This document shows, one piece after another, positions 1-10,875 of a DNA stretch of 12,135 nt. The notes beneath the pieces were generated by a model, which searched no databases, was not told where the DNA came from, and saw only the letters and a program-made list of their open reading frames with translations. Position numbers and translations under genes: made by a program. This stretch comes from an uncultured Thermomonas sp. (GTDB lineage: Bacteria > Pseudomonadota > Gammaproteobacteria > Xanthomonadales > Xanthomonadaceae), in assembly GCA_946480065.1 (NCBI GenBank), contig CAMLJA010000030.1, positions 1 to 12,135 of the forward strand, in the 5' to 3' direction. Within the stretch, counting starts at the first letter, position 1. Every line of letters starts with the position of its first letter.

Positions 1-46
1 AGATCAGAGTGAGTGACTGGAGTTCAGACGTGTGCTCTTCCGATCT
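1..46. other. Illumina adapter contamination at contig end
   Basis: Positions 13-46 match the Illumina TruSeq multiplexing read-2 primer: they begin GTGACTGGAGTTCAGACG and end GCTCTTCCGATCT. Positions 1-4 (AGAT) fit the 3' end of the P7 primer, so positions 5-12 (CAGAGTGA) sit where an 8-base index would be. Genomic sequence starts at 47. Open frames through this stretch give peptides familiar as adapter translations in databases, such as RKSTRLNSSH, TGVQTCALPI and [12 protein letters not shown]. The segment is a library artefact and carries no biological feature. Confidence 0.97.
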
Positions 47-1922
47 CCGCCGCCAGCACGCTGCCGTCGGCCACCATCCGCACCGCCGCCGCCACCTCGC
101 CGTCCAGCGCGCGGTCGCGGTCCAGGAACGGGATGCGCGCGCGGATCGCCGCGTGCGCCGCGGCCACCGCCCGCCCCGGGCGGAACGCGTCGGCCGCGGC
201 CAGCTCGGCGCGCAGGCCGTCGACCTCGGCCAGGAAGGCGTCGCGGTCGGGCGCACCCGGCAGCGGGCCGTTGTGGACCTTGGCGGCGAACGCCTCGGCA
301 TTCGTCCGACCCGCCAGTTCGCGCGCGGCGTTGATCATGTCGCGGCGCAGGTCCAGCGCCTGCGCGGCGGTGTACAGCTCCAGCCCCAGCACCTTGCCCA
401 GGTCGGCGGCCATCGCCAGCACGTGGCGGGCCTCGTTGGCGCCCATCGACACGTGGTCCTCGGCATTGGCCGAGGTCGGGATGGAATACACCGAGGCCGG
501 CATGGCGCGGCTGGCCAGGTCGTTGACGATGGCCGCGGCGGTGTACTGCACGATCATGTGGCCGGACTCGGTGCCGTCCTCGTTGCCGATCAGGAACGGC
601 GGCAGCCCGTCGCTGGTGGCCGCGTCCACCAGCTTGTTGAGGCGGCGCTCGCTGATCGAGGCCAGCACCGGGATGGCGGCCTTCAGGTAGCCCATCGCCA
701 GCGCCAGCGGCATGCCGTGGAAGTGGCCGGCGGAGATCACCTGCTCCTCGACGAACTCGGCCTGCTTGTCCGGGAACACCAGCGGGTTGTCGGTGACCGC
801 GTTGAGCTCGATGTCGAGCACGCGCCTGGCCTGGTCCAGCGCGTCGCGCACCGCGCCGTGCACCTGCGGGATGCAGCGCAGCGAGTAGCTGTCCTGCGGC
901 TGGTGCTTCTTGCCCCCGCGGAACGGGCGGAAGCGGCGGTAGAACTTCTCGCGGCCGTGGCGCTGGCCGAAAGGCACCCAGTCCCAGCCGATGTCGAAGG
1001 TCAGCGCGCGCGACTTTGCGGTCTCCCAGCTGGCGGGCAGCCACGGACGGAACCGCGGCACCAGGTGGTAGGCAATGTCGGCCAGGGTGGAACCCTCCAG
1101 CAGCCGCAGCAGCCGGGCCGCGGTCTCGACCTGGCCGGGGTGCGGGCGCAGCGCGTGCACGTCCGGCGCGAACGCGCCCAGGCGCCCGGCGAAGGCGTCC
1201 AGGGTCATCGCCGCGGCCAGGTCCGCGGTCTCCACCAGGTCCTCGAGCTGCTGCACCGCCAGCACGCCGGTCGCCAGCATCTGCGCGGTGCCGTTGTTCA
1301 GCGCCAGGCCTTCCTTGTAGGACAGCTCGACCGGCTGCAGGCCCTTGCGCGCCAGCGCCTCGGCGCCGGGCAGGCGCTGGCCGTCCACGAACGCCTCGCC
1401 GCCGCCCAGCAGGACGATGGCCAGGTGCGACAGCGGCGCCAGGTCGCCCGAGGCGCCCACCGAGCCCAGCTGCGGCACCACCGGCACGATCCCGGCGTTG
1501 AGCATCGCCGCCAGCGCCTGGACCGTCCGCACCCGGATGCCGGAGTGCCCGCGCAGCAGGGTGTTGATGCGGATGCACAGCATCGCCCGCACCACCTCTG
1601 GCGCGAACGGTTCGCCCACGCAGACTGCGTGGGTGACGATCAGGTTGCGCTGCAGCTCGATGTGCGGCGACATTCCGGACGCGGCGGCGCCCGGCAGTTC
1701 GTCGCGCAGCGGATGCGCGCCGAGCAGCTTGTCGGCGTTGCTGCCGAAGCCGGTGGACACGCCGTAGATCGGCTCTTCGCGGGCCACCTGCGCGGCCAGG
1801 AAGTCGGCCGCGCGGGCCACGCAGTCCAGCGCGCCCTCGTCCAGCGCCACCGCGGCGCCGCGCGCCACCGCCACCAGCTGCGCGCGGGTCAGCGAGCGGC
1901 CGTCCAGCCGGACCGCGCTCAC
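47..1922 (-). CDS. hutH: Histidine ammonia-lyase (HAL/PAL/TAL family), 3' end lost to adapter
   Basis: Would deaminate histidine to urocanate, the first step of histidine breakdown, in the cytoplasm. The MIO cofactor triad Ala-Ser-Gly is at residues 157-159 in [15 protein letters not shown]. Residues aligned by eye to the Pseudomonas HutH active site are kept: Tyr53 (YGVSTGFG), His98, Asn210, Gln343, Tyr346 and Arg349 (QDSYSLRC), Phe401 and Glu488 (AEDHVSM). The His and Glu are histidine-type substrate determinants, so HAL is favoured over PAL or TAL. About 625 residues are genomic, against about 510 for typical HutH. The excess lies mainly in an insertion at about 283-342 (aromatic and basic, including [14 protein letters not shown]) and in an extended segment at about 537-590. 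The GTG start overlaps the hisS stop as GTGA, implying translational coupling. The C-terminus is cut within its last residues by adapter sequence, so the natural stop is not seen. No other hut genes are visible. The exact substrate is inferred. Confidence 0.85.
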
Positions 1923-3403: not shown

Positions 3404-3480
<77 letters not shown>

Positions 3481-3527: not shown

Positions 3528-4816
3528 CTAGAGCGCGGCCCAGCGCGCGCGCAGCGCGTCCAGGCGCAGGTCCGCCGGACCGCCCGGCGAAGTGCGCGCC
3601 GCCAGCGAGCCTTCCGGCGTGCGGCCCTGCCCGGCGGCCCCGGCCGACTCGGCCGCGGCCTTGTAGGCGTCGCGGAACGGCACCCCGGCGATCGCCGCCT
3701 CCACCGCCACGTCGGTGGCGTACATGCCCGAATCGATCGCGGCCCGCAGGCGGTCCTCGCGCCAGTCCAGGTTGGCAAGCAGCGCCGGCAGCAGCTCCAG
3801 CGCGGCCAGGCCGCGGCCGAAGCCGTGCACGATCGCGCCCTTGGAGGCCTGCAGGTCGCGGTGGTAGCCGGACGGCAGCGACAGCAGCTGCTCGATTTCG
3901 GTGCGCGCCGCGGCCACGCTGGCGTGGGTGGCGCGCATCAGTTCGATCACGTCCGGGTTGCGCTTGTTCGGCATGATCGAACTGCCGGTGGTGTATTGCG
4001 CCGGCAGCGCCACGAAGCCGAACTCGGCGCTGGTGAACAGCGACAGGTCCCAGGCGATCCGGCGCAGGTCCAGGGTGGCGCTGCCCAGCGCTTCCAGCGC
4101 GGCCAGCTCGAACTTGCCGCGCGAGAGCTGCGCGTACGCCGGCGAGACCTGCATCCGCGCGAAGCCCAGCGCGCGCGTGGTGTGCCCGCGGTCCAGCCGC
4201 AGGTTGACGCCGTAGCCGGCGGCAGTGCCCAGCGGGTTGCAGTCCACCAGCGCCAGCGTGCCGGCGGCGCGCACCGCATCGTCGATGAAGGCCTCCGCCC
4301 AGCCCGCCCACCACAGCCCGGCCGAGGACACCACCGCGCGCTGGATGTGGGTGTAGCCGGGCATCGGCAGGTCCTGCTCCGCCTCGGCCCGGTCCAGCGC
4401 GACCTTGGCGATCTCGCGGGACAGCGCGGCCAGCCGCGCGAGCTTTTCCTTCAGCCACAGCCGCGTGGCCACCAGCACCTGGTCGTTGCGGCTGCGCCCG
4501 GTGTGGATCTTGCGGCCGGCATCGCCCAGGCGCTCGGTCAGGCGGGCCTCGATCGCGGAATGGCCGTCCTCGTAGCGCCCGTCCAGCACGAACGCACCGC
4601 TGCGGAAATCGTCGGCCAGCCTCGCCAGCTCGCGCTTGAGTCCGCCCAGCTCGTCCAGCGTGAGGATGCCGATGCGCTGCAGGCCCTCGGCATGCGCGGC
4701 GCTGGCGGCGATGTCGTGCAGGAAGAACTCGCGGTCCAGCAGCACGTCATCGCCGGCCAGGAAGGCCTGGATGCCGGCGTCGACCGCCACGCCGGGTTTC
4801 TGCCACAGCAAGTCGC

Positions 4817-4820
<4 letters not shown>
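3528..4820 (-). CDS. argH: Argininosuccinate lyase
   Basis: Last step of arginine synthesis: splits argininosuccinate into arginine and fumarate; known members are cytoplasmic homotetramers. The 430-residue protein is slightly shorter than E. coli ArgH (about 457). Fumarase/aspartase-superfamily motifs in order: EDGHSAIE (84-91), [10 protein letters not shown] (106-115), PGYTHIQ (154-160) and the signature loop [12 protein letters not shown] (279-290) carrying the catalytic serine. The start ATG at 4820 overlaps the argC stop as ATGA. An upstream extension in the same frame lies inside argC and reads as low-complexity Arg/Gly/Pro, so it was rejected. This is the final cistron of the arginine operon here; the tRNA-Pro hairpin terminator lies immediately downstream. 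Confidence 0.97.
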
Positions 4821-7122
<2,302 letters not shown>

Positions 7123-7128
7123 GGGGGG

Positions 7129-8229
7129 TCAGGTTCCAAGGATGCGGGAGATGGAATCGGCGTAGCGCTGCAGCTGGTCCAGCGCCACCCATTCGCCGGC
7201 GGTATGCGCCTGGGCGATGTCGCCCGGGCCGTAGACGAAGGCGGTCAGGCCGGCCTGCGAGAACAGCGAGGCCTCGGTCCAGAAATCGACGGCGTTGCCG
7301 ATCGGCAGGTCCAGCGCGTCGGCGAGGTCGCGCGCGGCCAGCCGGCGCTCCTCCGCGGTGGCGCCAGCATCCGAAAAGAAGGCGCCGGCGGGCAGCGAGG
7401 GCCCGCGGAAGGTCTCCTCGTAGCGCTCCAGCGCGCCGGGCGCGGCGCAGGTGCCGAAGCGGACGTGCAGCGCATCGACGTCGTGCGAGGGCAGCGGGCG
7501 GAAGCCGAAGCGGACCTCGGCGCTGGGCGCGATCACGTTGGCCTTGATGCCGCCCTCGACCTTGCCGATGTTGAAGCGCAGGCCGGTCAGGCCGCCGAAG
7601 CGCGCGTGGGCCTCGCCTTCGACCAGGTCCAGCGCATTCGCGCCCCAGCGCATCGCCTGGTGCAGCGCGTTGGCCTGCAGCGCGTTGGCGCCGGAGGCGT
7701 GGCCGGCCTCGCCCTTGAAGCGCAGCAGCACCGAGCTGATGCCGCGGTGCGCCAGCACCGCCTCGCAGCGGGTCGGCTCGGCGATGATCGCCTCGTCGAA
7801 GCCCCGGTCCTCGGCCAGGAACGCGGCGATGCAGCGCGGGTCGTTCGCCTCCTCGTCGCTGGAGAACAGGAACGCCGCATCGCCGGCGGTGGCCTGCGCC
7901 GCCGCCAGCAGGCCCGCCGCCGCGCCCTTGATGTCGCAGGCGCCCAGGCCGATCGCGCGGTCGTGCGTCACCCGCAGCCGCAGCGGGTCGGCGTCCCACG
8001 CCTCGGACGATGGCACCGTGTCCAGGTGCACGTTGAAGACGCGGCGCGGGGTGCCGCGCACGGCCAGCAGCGACACCGCGCCTTCGCCGTGGTCGACCAC
8101 CTCGCAGCGGAAGCCCGGCAGCTGCGCGCGCAGGTAGTCGAAGATCCCGCCGGTGCCGATCCGGCGCGGCGGGTTGCGGGTGTCGAAGGAGACCAGCGCT
8201 TCGAGGTGGCGGAGAACATCTTCAAGCAT
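7129..8229 (-). CDS. argE: N-acetyl-L-citrulline deacetylase (M20 family)
   Basis: Zinc-dependent amidohydrolase of the M20 peptidase/ArgE family. In xanthomonads this protein removes acetate from N-acetylcitrulline to give citrulline, rather than acting on N-acetylornithine. Expected metal-site residues are visible: His68 in NVHLDT with Asp70, Asp99 in GACDIKGA, Glu126/127 in SSDEEAND, Glu151 in AEPT and His342 in QAHTAGEW. Length is 366 residues, like the Xanthomonas enzyme. Substrate assignment is inferred from family resemblance and from co-occurrence with the N-acetylornithine carbamoyltransferase two genes upstream; acetylornithine deacetylase is the alternative. It is separated from argG by a 110-bp palindromic repeat, so its expression relative to argFG may be modulated there. 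The ATG start lacks a strong Shine-Dalgarno sequence. Confidence 0.93.
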   Translation of the reverse strand: MLEDVLRHLEALVSFDTRNPPRRIGTGGIFDYLRAQLPGFRCEVVDHGEGAVSLLAVRGTPRRVFNVHLDTVPSSEAWDADPLRLRVTHDRAIGLGACDIKGAAAGLLAAAQATAGDAAFLFSSDEEANDPRCIAAFLAEDRGFDEAIIAEPTRCEAVLAHRGISSVLLRFKGEAGHASGANALQANALHQAMRWGANALDLVEGEAHARFGGLTGLRFNIGKVEGGIKANVIAPSAEVRFGFRPLPSHDVDALHVRFGTCAAPGALERYEETFRGPSLPAGAFFSDAGATAEERRLAARDLADALDLPIGNAVDFWTEASLFSQAGLTAFVYGPGDIAQAHTAGEWVALDQLQRYADSISRILGT

Positions 8230-8250
8230 GTAAGGGGTTCGCTCTTGCTC

Positions 8251-8360
8251 GTCATCCCCGCGAAGGCGGGCATCTTTTCGCAGACGTTGTGTCTGCGTAT
8301 CCAGTTCTTGGCAGTGGGTTGAAAATCCGGACGCCGGATTCCCGCGTTCGCGGGAATGAC
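8251..8360. repeat. Palindromic REP/MITE-like element between argG and argE'
   Basis: The outer arms 8251-8274 and 8337-8360 are inverted copies (21 of 24 bases complementary; right arm GATTCCCGCGTTCGCGGGAA plus TGAC). The right arm itself is a palindrome, CCCGCG TT CGCGGG. Two further perfect 7-bp hairpins lie inside: CGCAGAC/GTCTGCG (8279-8297, loop GTTGT) and AATCCGG/CCGGATT (8324-8340, loop ACG). GTCATTCCCGCGAA-type ends are common in dispersed intergenic repeats of xanthomonads. The element fills most of the 134-bp gap and ends 4 bp from the argG stop codon. No coding sequence. In the mRNA it would form a large structure that could stabilise the argFG part or reduce read-through. Confidence 0.8.
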
Positions 8361-8364
8361 AGCC

Positions 8365-9570
8365 TCAGCCGTTCACCTCGGCCCACAGCGTGCTGCTCAT
8401 GCCGAACAGCTTGATGAAGCCCTCGGCCTCCTCCACGCCCCAGTCGGCCGACTGCGCGTAGGTCGCGCCCTTGGCGTTCAGCAGGTGCGGCGAGCGCACG
8501 GCCACGGCATCCACCCGGCCGCCGCTGGTGCGCAGCACCACCTCGCCGTTGACCATGCGCTGGCTGGAGGCGAGGAACGCTTCCAGGTCCGCCTTCAGCG
8601 GATCGTGGAAGAAGCCCTCGTAGACCAGTTCCACCCACTTGCGGGCGACGTCCGGCTTGAAGCGGTTCTGCTGCTTGGTCAGCACCGCTTCCTCCAGCGC
8701 GCGGTGTGCGGCCAGCAGCGCGGCCAGGCCCGGCGCCTCGAACACGATGCGGCCCTTCAGGCCGATGGTGGTATCGCCGGTGTACATGCCGCGGCCGACG
8801 CCGTACTGGGCGAACATGGTGTTGAGCCTGGCGAGGATCTTTTCGCCCGCCAGCGCCTGCCCGTCCAGCGCCACGGCCTCGCCATTGTCGAAGCGCAGCG
8901 TCACTTCCAGCGCTTCGGCCGGCCAGTGCTCGCGGCGCGCGCACCAGCCGCGCGCGCCCTCGCCCGGCGCTTCCCAGGCGTCGATCTCGCCGCCGGACAT
9001 GGTCACGCCCAGCAGGTTCTCGTTGATCGTGTAGGCCTTCTGCTTGGCGCGCACGCCGAAGCCGCGCGCCTCCAGGTAGGCCTGCTCGTAGGCGCGGGTC
9101 TGGGTGTGCTGCTTCTGGATCTCGCGGATCGGCGCCACGATGCGGTAGTCGCCCTGCGCCTTCACGGCGAGGTCGAACCGCACCTGGTCATTGCCCATGC
9201 CGGTGCAGCCGTGGGCGATGGCATTGGTGCCCAGTTCGCGCGCACGCGCCAGACTGGCGTCCACGATCAGGTAGCGGTCGGAGACCAGCAGCGGGTACTG
9301 GCCCTGGTAGCCCTCGCCCGCCCACACGAAAGGCTTCACGAAGCCGGACCAGATCGCCGGGCCGCCGTCGACGGTGACGTGCGAGGCCACGCCCAGTTCG
9401 GCGGCGCGGGCCTCGATGGTGGCGCGCTCCTCGGCGTCCACGCCGCCGGTGTCGGCGAACACGGTGTGCACGTTCCAGCCCTGCTCCTTCAGGTAGGGCA
9501 CGCAGAAGCTGGTGTCGAGGCCGCCGGAGAAGGCGAGGACGATGTCGCGGGAGTCGTTGGGGGCAGTCAT
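8365..9570 (-). CDS. argG: Argininosuccinate synthase
   Basis: ATP-dependent joining of citrulline and aspartate to argininosuccinate in the cytoplasm. The 401-residue protein has the N-type ATP pyrophosphatase loop SGGLDTS at residues 15-21. Other family blocks follow: [22 protein letters not shown], and a C-terminal half with [19 protein letters not shown]. Length is normal for the family (about 400). It receives citrulline made by ArgF' plus ArgE' and hands its product to ArgH. The 40-bp gap from argF' is almost wholly GGGGAAT-type repeats, which on the coding strand read as C-rich ATTCCCC right up to the ATG, so no Shine-Dalgarno motif is present. Confidence 0.98.
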
Positions 9571-9610: not shown

Positions 9611-10612
9611 TCAGCGCAGCAGCGCGGCCATCACCGCCTTCTGCACGTGCAGGCGGTTCTCGGCTTCGTCGATCGCGATGCAGCGCGGGGAATCCATCAC
9701 CGCGTCGGTGGCCTTCACGTTGCGGCGCAGCGGCAGGCAGTGCGAGAACACGCCATCGTTGGTCAGCGCCATCTTGGCCTCGTCGACGATGAAGTGCTTG
9801 TACTGGTCGCGGATCGGCTTTTCCGGCTCCCAGTTGCCGAAGTACGGCAGCGCGCCCCAGCTCTTGGCATAGACCACGTCGGCACCGGCGTAGGCGCTCT
9901 CGATGTCGTGGCTGACCTGCAGCGAGCCGCCGCTCTCGGCCACGTTCTGCGCGGCCCAGCCCATGTAGCGCTCGTCCAGCACGTAGTCCGGGGTCGGGCA
10001 CAGCAGGGTCACGTCCATGCCTAGCCGGGTGGCGATGGTCAGCGCCGAATTGGCGACCGCGGTGTTGAGCGGCTTCGGGTGGTAGGTCCAGGTCAGCACG
10101 TACTTCCTGCCGCGCAGGTCGGTGGTGCCGAAGTGCTCCTGCAGCGCCAGCGCATGGGCCAGCTCCTGGCAGGGATGGGTGATGGTCTCCATGTTGATCA
10201 CCGGCACCGTGGAGTACCTGGCGAACGCCTTCAGCACCCGGTCCTCGCGGTCCACCGACCAGTCGACGAACTTCGGGAACGCGCGCACGCCGATCAGGTC
10301 CACGTAGCGCGCCAGCACCCGCGCCACCTCGGCGATGTGCTCCTCGGTATCGCCGTCCATGACCGTGCCGAGGTCGAACTCGATCGGCCACGCGTCCTTG
10401 CCCGGCTGCAGCACCACCGCGTGGCCGCCCAGCTGGAACGCGCCCAGCTCGAAGCTGGTGCGGGTGCGCATCGACGGGTTGAAGAACACCAGCGCAATCG
10501 AGCGGCCCTTCATCGCGTCGCCCAGCTTGCTGCGCTTGAACGCCGCGGCCTGCGCCAGCAGGGCGTCCAGGTCGGGGCGGCTCCAGTCCTGGGTGTTGAG
10601 GAAGTGCTTCAT
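9611..10612 (-). CDS. argF': N-acetylornithine carbamoyltransferase
   Basis: Transfers a carbamoyl group from carbamoyl phosphate to N-acetylornithine, giving N-acetylcitrulline. The 333-residue protein has the carbamoyl-phosphate loop as [12 protein letters not shown] (44-55) instead of the STRTR form of ordinary OTCase, plus HPCQ (146-149) and [13 protein letters not shown] (291-303). Lys300 aligns by eye (offset 2, anchored on Trp75 as Xanthomonas Trp77) with the Lys302 reported to be carboxylated in X. campestris AOTCase. Glu90 aligns with Glu92, the residue that distinguishes acetyl- from succinyl-ornithine enzymes. This fits acetylornithine specificity. It is the first cistron of the arginine operon, preceded by a leader with a terminator/antiterminator pair. 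Start ATG at 10612 has only a weak ribosome site. Confidence 0.97.
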
Positions 10613-10641: not shown

Positions 10642-10671
10642 CTGCGAGGCTGTTGCAAAGACCCAGAACGC

Positions 10672-10696
10672 AAAAACCCAGCCTGGGGGCTGGGTT
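10672..10696 (-). terminator. Intrinsic terminator (attenuator) in the argF' leader
   Basis: On the minus strand a perfect 9-bp stem AACCCAGCC (10696-10688) and GGCTGGGTT (10683-10675), loop CCCA, runs straight into TTT, giving five consecutive T counting the last two stem bases, followed by GCG. It lies about 60 nt upstream of the argF' start, on the same strand. It would therefore stop transcripts entering the operon unless disrupted. A further CTGGGT copy lies just downstream at 10666-10661. Confidence 0.75.
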
Positions 10697-10735
10697 CGGA
10701 TGGTGAAGCGCGACGACGCGTCCGGATTACCCAGC
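10689..10735 (-). promoter_or_regulatory. Predicted antiterminator exclusive with the argF' leader terminator
   Basis: On the minus strand GCTGGGT (10735-10729) can pair with ACCCAGC (10695-10689), which is the 5' arm of the terminator. CGGA (10724-10721) pairs with TCCG (10700-10697) inside that helix. The 20-nt apical part contains a mini-hairpin CGCG/CGCG (10720-10709). The 11 pairs in two helices cannot coexist with the terminator. The 5' arm overlaps the TAA stop of a possible leader peptide, so a ribosome at the stop would block it, whereas one stalled upstream would allow it. Pairing was found by hand; no folding energies were computed. Confidence 0.55.
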
Positions 10736-10828
10736 GGGATGTGAGGGTTCCGGTCGGCGCGCGCGCGACGTCATGCCGGAGGCCATCCGGGCGGCGTCAG
10801 CGTGGCGCGTGGCGAGGTGCATGTGCAT
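10727..10828 (-). CDS. Possible leader peptide of the arginine operon
   Basis: A 33-residue frame beginning MHMHLATRH and ending TSRARRPEPSHPAG, stop TAA at 10729-10727. It has five arginines, three of them clustered at residues 22-25 (CGC GCG CGC CGA), and four histidines. Its last codons (GCT GGG TAA) are the 5' arm of the antiterminator helix. That position is what a ribosome-mediated attenuator needs, with arginine as the natural sensed amino acid. Against it: no clear Shine-Dalgarno site, the frame is open far upstream, and arginine is common by chance in DNA this GC-rich. Shorter starts at Met15 or Met19 are possible. Translation is unproven. Confidence 0.3.
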   Translation of the reverse strand: MHMHLATRHADAARMASGMTSRARRPEPSHPAG

Positions 10829-10875
10829 GAGGGCGCGGATGCTCGCATGTCCCCGGCGCGGGCGCAAGCGCCGGC

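Follow-up and report, generated by a model that had tools for sequence, protein, structure and literature searches.

The leader of argF', the gene for N-acetylornithine carbamoyltransferase, on the minus strand of the Thermomonas sp. contig analysed here (12,135 nt, hereafter the window), is very probably a ribosome-mediated transcription attenuator of the arginine operon, which would be switched by arginine supply and would act in place of the repressor ArgR. The leader region comprises the 263 bp (10875-10613) between the upstream frame and argF', and holds a 33-codon frame with arginine codons clustered in Ser-Arg-Ala-Arg-Arg (SRARR), followed by two alternative RNA helices, an antiterminator and an intrinsic terminator, which share the segment ACCCAGC (see Table 1 for all coordinates). 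A first-pass annotation of the window had placed the frame, its arginine codons, ACCCAGC, the upstream partner GCTGGGT, the terminator and the 263 bp gap, all at the right coordinates; its label of a translational attenuator is loose, as the leader points to attenuation of transcription coupled to leader translation. The proposal is built on sequence comparison, i.e. on a conserved frame, covarying alternative helices, their spacing, the gene association and a search that found no Arg_repressor domain, and from these we infer translation, arginine sensing and read-through.

The predicted leader stands before argF' in Xanthomonadaceae and in a second family (f12), probably Rhodanobacteraceae, to judge from the named loci (Dyella, Rhodanobacter, Frateuria) sharing its leader type. 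In all 91 first-round sequences (90 loci plus the window) and in 30 further loci found by pattern, argF' is the downstream gene, as it is wherever the sequence extends far enough, with the sole exception of L133, a chance pattern match within a frame of a deltaproteobacterial metagenome-assembled genome with no argF' downstream. A stricter leader pattern is present in 145/299 genomes of the order, with zero control matches, while a relaxed one, allowing three mismatches and matching in reversed form 14/299 genomes, is found at least once in 79/79 genomes of family f1, 75/75 of f12, 3/3 of f2 and 8/10 of f3 (one dubious). Five scattered relaxed matches outside these four families, among the matches listed, were taken as chance. 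Across the class, the relaxed pattern is present in 5/369 genomes, all belonging to this order, and in 0 of the 364 others. Concerning the repressor, the Arg_repressor domain was found in 0/119 Xanthomonadaceae genomes (a sample outside which the source assembly lies, and in which AraC-type ArgR was not searched for) and in 9/14 control genomes, in line with the doubt that the first-pass annotation had cast on ArgR control. Within the order the domain is found in 8/299 genomes, all of family f11, which show no leader by the stricter pattern and a sole relaxed match (G453) without SRARR; neither leader pattern nor domain was found for families f4 to f10 in this 299-genome survey.

To characterize the leader frame, the first-round sequences, 89 of which are distinct, were reduced to 49 leaders at less than 88% identity, all of which keep the frame open over 29-37 residues. 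Two genomes are present twice (L001 = L051, L011 = L052) and some named loci are identical to genomes with G handles, hence counts of distinct sequences are given next to those of rows; L029 and L053 were left out of the leader tables, and both carry the leader, with GITSRARRP and GTTSRARRP, respectively. A set of 64 distinct 15-codon cores, derived from 119 leaders, yields a proportion of synonymous differences (pS) of 0.356 and of nonsynonymous differences (pN) of 0.059, i.e. a pN/pS of 0.167 in frame, as against 1.66 and 4.42 when the same cores are read out of frame, and the off-consensus share is 3.9, 0.4 and 22% for codon positions 1, 2 and 3. The peptide core MA[SA]GMTSRARRP is nearly invariant, with conservation reaching past the arginines and most third positions varying; the first Arg of the 15-codon core is variable in some leaders (Lysobacter, Vulcaniibacterium and others, among the matches listed), SRARR being kept. 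By these measures the leader frame evolves as a protein-coding gene, whose translation is predicted. The window peptide shows no Pfam match up to an E-value of 1, the speF leader peptide family PF10940 included, 33 residues giving such a search low power.

The arginine codons are, as the first-pass annotation expected, conserved in relatives, with the three SRARR arginines and the CGA codon kept. Among loci from searches without a CGA requirement the last Arg codon is CGA in 119/121, both exceptions (L037 and L053) having CGG, and in 110/111 of the distinct leaders tabulated; at least 120 further loci, obtained with a pattern requiring CGACC, were left out of these counts. The other two Arg codons of the cluster are CGT or CGC only (238 leaders). 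CGA is rare otherwise, accounting for 0/266 Arg codons across eight window genes and for 27/1360 in the first 100 codons of argF' (230 loci). In a Salmonella his-leader assay the reading of CGA was reported to be slower than that of CGU and CGC, with strong de-attenuation by Arg-Arg pairs containing CGA (PMC4046918). Two genomes of a third family of the order, G431 and G455, show GMTSRARR with CGT instead of CGA as the last Arg codon.

The helices were analyzed in 239 leaders, 231 of which have argF' no more than 450 nt away and, by set criteria, a terminator; the remaining eight comprise L043 and L199, with a terminator recognized by eye, five at the end of the available sequence, and L133. 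One of the 231, which lacks the standard arm core, was excluded, giving 230 rows (198 distinct leaders), from which 39 non-redundant leaders were drawn for energy z-scores. The proposal that ACCCAGC is shared by terminator and antiterminator is supported: against dinucleotide shuffles the terminator has a median z of -4.58 and the antiterminator one of -2.61, with values below zero in 39/39. These are not chance folds.

The antiterminator arm shows perfect 7-base pairing in 150/198 distinct leaders. Arm types (segments 2, 3 and 4) are mostly GCTGGGT/ACCCAGC/GCTGGGT in Xanthomonadaceae and GCCGGGT/ACCCGGC/GCCGGGT in the second family, the varying pair in the shared arm being T-A in 112, C-G in 71, T-G in 13 and C-A in 2 distinct leaders (136, 76, 15 and 3 over all 230 rows). 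On the argF' tree the paired bases change 8 and 9 times, with 3 changes on the same branch, compared with about 0.16 expected (8 x 9 / 458 branches). The second antiterminator helix also differs by family, CGGA:TCCG and the like versus TGTCG:CGACA, and fits its own partner best, since own pairs score 11.45 and swapped ones 9.78 (sd 0.22; top of 200 swaps 10.27; 151 distinct of 222 rows, 8 weak-arm rows excluded). Judged by these exchanges, both antiterminator helices and the terminator covary, as anticipated in the first-pass annotation, and antiterminator and terminator exclude each other. Segment 1 would form a protector hairpin with part of segment 2, and the consensus of Rfam family RF02242 has a hairpin at the protector position. 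A further candidate, a pause- or riboswitch-like hairpin in the codons for ARMASG, covaries by eye and was rejected, a synonymous null being as low or lower in 9/100 draws (z -1.42).

The geometry of codons, stop and arm is informative as well. GCTGGGT (10735-10729) spans the final sense codons of the leader frame and reaches the first base of its stop. The distance from the first base of CGA to the arm start is 21 nt in 171/198 distinct leaders and 18-24 nt in 195/198, while the distance to the stop ranges from 6 to 30 nt (27 nt in 175/198); in five leaders a stop lying 9 nt further upstream goes with an arm shift of 1 nt. As the stop position moves and the arm spacing holds, selection seems to preserve the distance from arginine codons to the switch. 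A ribosome holding CGA in the A site would cover about 13 nt ahead and thus leave the arm free, while a ribosome at the stop codon would cover it.

In the proposed mechanism, transcription would begin some 2 nt ahead of the leader ATG, and the ribosome would start at the mRNA 5' end. If arginine is plentiful, the ribosome would pass SRARR, reach the stop and cover segment 2, so that segments 3 and 4 would form the terminator and transcription would stop near 10672. If arginyl-tRNA is short, it would stall on the Arg codons, above all at the rare CGA, covering segment 1; segment 2, which lies 21 nt downstream, would stay accessible and pair with segment 3, no terminator would form, and argF'GEBCH would be transcribed.

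The argF' leader is the same RNA as RF02242, the Xanthomonadaceae small RNA (sRNA) Xoo5. The first-pass annotation overlooked this identity, as well as the probable frame start at the transcript 5' end and the conservation of the peptide beyond the arginines. Within the sampled family RF02242 matches at an E-value of 0.001 in 316/395 genomes and over the gathering cut-off in 204/395. In X. oryzae, sRNA-Xoo5 was placed upstream of PXO_00353, an N-acetylornithine carbamoyltransferase, its 5' end was mapped by rapid amplification of cDNA ends (Table 2 of that work), and Northern blots gave bands of about 130 and 100 nt, two transcripts being present early in growth and the short one alone at later stages (PMC3039613). 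It is filed as an sRNA, and the portion of PMC3039613 drawn on here makes no mention of a leader peptide or attenuator; the RF02242 model is typed as an sRNA gene though a conserved coding frame lies inside, and it stops before the conserved terminator. Deletion of a different one, sRNA-Xoo1, located before thiC, was reported to lower both ArgG and ArgF' proteins (PMC3039613, Table 4).

Position 1 of the RF02242 model lies only 2 nt before the leader ATG (10830 in the window; likewise in L051 and L031), hence the transcript is predicted to start at 10830, with the leader frame placed right at its 5' end. This suggests that the leader is translated leaderless, and we infer the same initiation in this organism. 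A TTG[CGA] motif of the -35 type, at the distance that matches this 5' end, occurs at -46..-31 in 30/35 non-redundant leaders that have a start and sufficient upstream sequence, versus 4, 1, 1 and 4 in four control windows, and one of five purine-rich 4-mers stands at the Shine-Dalgarno place in 8/35.

Several observations weigh against the attenuator as proposed. The predicted terminated RNA is 159 nt, longer than the published Xoo5 bands, and the cloned 3' end, at 124 nt, falls before the terminator (PMC3039613); the bands may result from processing, or else the sizes or the 3' end may have been misjudged. In the same report, sRNA deletions including Xoo5 left growth unchanged in rich or minimal medium, and flanking genes are said to be unaffected, which is odd for an operon's own leader. 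Neither band sizes nor deletion phenotype refutes the comparative evidence, and both need an answer. In addition, in relatives the protector (1:2) hairpin does not reach significance (median z -0.45, 39 non-redundant rows), the arm match is weak (9-10 of 14) in 8/230 rows (7/198 distinct leaders), and the peptide is conserved beyond the Arg codons, something plain tRNA sensing does not require. No experiment on arginine dependence was found in the open-access literature.

The extended conservation is what keeps a rather unlikely alternative in view, namely that the nascent peptide is the sensor, its core arresting the ribosome from within the exit tunnel when a small molecule, be it arginine, ornithine or an intermediate, is either present or missing, and throwing the same RNA switch. 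It would account for M-A, G, M-T-S and P, which hardly change in a frame whose third positions mostly do, but the almost constant rare CGA is better explained by tRNA supply, a stop located 6 to 30 nt past the first base of CGA makes a fixed-geometry arrest there unlikely, and an arrest at RARR under high arginine would turn the operon on, the wrong direction. An unlikely further form of the attenuator reading combines the two: a leaderless attenuator, with the ribosome starting on the first transcript nucleotides, whose conserved 12-residue peptide would, beyond tRNA charging alone, tune or sense arginine status, and which would have replaced ArgR in Xanthomonadaceae and the second family.

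Terminated leaders are able to act in trans, which counts for the reading of Xoo5 as a trans-acting sRNA lying before argF' incidentally. Its standing as a named sRNA and the short RNA on Northern blots (PMC3039613) agree with this; it is nevertheless very improbable, given that the RNA is found before argF' in two families, evolves as a protein and has helices sharing an arm in attenuator style. Hardly credible is a riboswitch, in which a metabolite-binding RNA would regulate and the frame would be a by-product, for although a structured leader with a terminator precedes a biosynthetic operon, no riboswitch family reaches its gathering threshold, substitutions preserve amino acids, and the ARMASG hairpin is not clearly stronger than the synonymous null.

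Table 1. Features of the argF' leader and the arginine gene cluster in the window.
Feature	Position	Strand	Details
-35-like TTGCGC	10867-10862	-	promoter-like pair (whole 10839..10867), read from sequence
-10-like GAGCAT	10844-10839	-	same pair; 10 nt 5' of leader ATG
Rfam RF02242 match	10707..10830	-	'Xanthomonadaceae sRNA Xoo5'; 70.7 bits, gathering 50, model 1-124 of 124
Leader peptide frame (predicted), 33 codons	10727..10828	-	MHMHLATRHADAARMASGMTSRARRPEPSHPAG; ATG 10828-10826, stop TAA 10729-10727
Control codons (putative) CGC-GCG-CGC-CGA	10754..10765	-	Arg-Ala-Arg-Arg; CGC 10765-10763, CGC 10759-10757, CGA 10756-10754
Segment 1, protector 5' arm	10745..10753	-	CCGGAACCC; pairs with 10732-10729 and 10726-10722; RNAfold -13.8 kcal/mol
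Segment 2, antiterminator 5' arm	10721..10735	-	GCTGGGT 10735-10729 and CCGGA 10725-10721
Segment 3, antiterminator 3' arm = terminator 5' arm	10689..10700	-	TCCG 10700-10697, ACCCAGC 10695-10689
Intrinsic terminator	10672..10697	-	GAACCCAGCC-CCCA-GGCTGGGTTT at 10697-10674; stem 10697-10688/10683-10674, loop CCCA, T run 10676-10672; RNAfold -16.9 kcal/mol
argF' (N-acetylornithine carbamoyltransferase), operon gene 1	9611..10612	-	NCBIfam NF003384, 635.2 bits, cut-off 288
argG	8365-9570	-	NCBIfam match over cut-off
argE	7129-8229	-	NCBIfam match over cut-off
argB	5776-7122	-	NCBIfam match over cut-off
argC	4817-5779	-	NCBIfam match over cut-off
argH	3528-4820	-	NCBIfam 278.7 bits, just under cut-off 279.5

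Downstream of the leader the gene order is argF', argG, argE, argB, argC, argH and then hisS, and from order and strand argF'GEBCH is presumed to be one operon (argG to argH spanning 3528..9570). A tRNA-Pro (CGG) gene lies between argH and hisS on the opposite strand, at 3404-3480 (+). Inside the gene cluster, between argG and argE (8225-8375), there are short GC-rich inverted repeats, cattcccgcgaacgcgggaatc and gcccgccttcgcggggatgac, which resemble dispersed repeats of the REP/dRS3 type. At the other end of the window, a histidine ammonia-lyase-like (hutH-like) frame (24-1922, minus strand) encodes 632 aa, and the best models, of about 505 positions, match it in two stretches, which suggests an insertion. 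Positions 1-48, at the contig end, read as Illumina adapter sequence, so that frames with a start or an end in this stretch are artefacts, as are the final codons of the hutH-like frame.

The first-pass annotation regarded such an attenuator as new or little described. The kind is known and the RNA already has its Rfam entry, while the arginine specificity, the leaderless start and the conserved peptide appear new; the open-access literature, outside which most subscription journals lie, yielded no account of such an attenuator for arginine biosynthesis, or of Xoo5 as one. The leader is a possible answer to how arginine synthesis is controlled without an ArgR domain in a large group of plant-associated and environmental bacteria, and turns the sRNA entry Xoo5 into a testable leader. 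Arginine would join the amino acids that are sensed by an attenuator in front of their own biosynthetic operon, and a leader peptide at the extreme mRNA 5' end would suit the study of leaderless coupling between ribosome and RNA polymerase.

Ribosome-mediated leader-peptide attenuators govern trp, his, thr, ilv, leu and pheA. For trp and pheA such attenuators are described in PMC5343134. The argF' leader shares with these classical cases a short promoter-proximal frame, control codons, an antiterminator, an intrinsic terminator and a biosynthetic operon of the sensed amino acid, and differs from them in its presumed arginine signal, the apparent translation from the mRNA 5' end, the one nearly invariant rare codon and the conserved peptide core. 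The cysS leader uORFC-8-2 of Rhodobacterales is likewise a predicted ribosome-mediated attenuator with tandem control codons and a terminator, but it concerns cysteine and alphaproteobacteria, and is likened here by its description, not by sequence (PMC8632094). Closest in function are the speF and carAB leaders. The Salmonella speF leader orf34 has 34 codons with two consecutive Arg codons, and pausing at low arginine refolds the RNA; unlike the argF' leader, it is described as working through Rho termination, mRNA stability and translation of the decarboxylase, with no intrinsic terminator before arginine biosynthesis (PMC6386406). The Pseudomonas carAB leader also combines a leader peptide with attenuation, before a gene serving both arginine and pyrimidine synthesis, but it belongs to another operon, and there attenuation is ascribed to pyrimidines, whereas arginine acts on transcription (PMC4997734).
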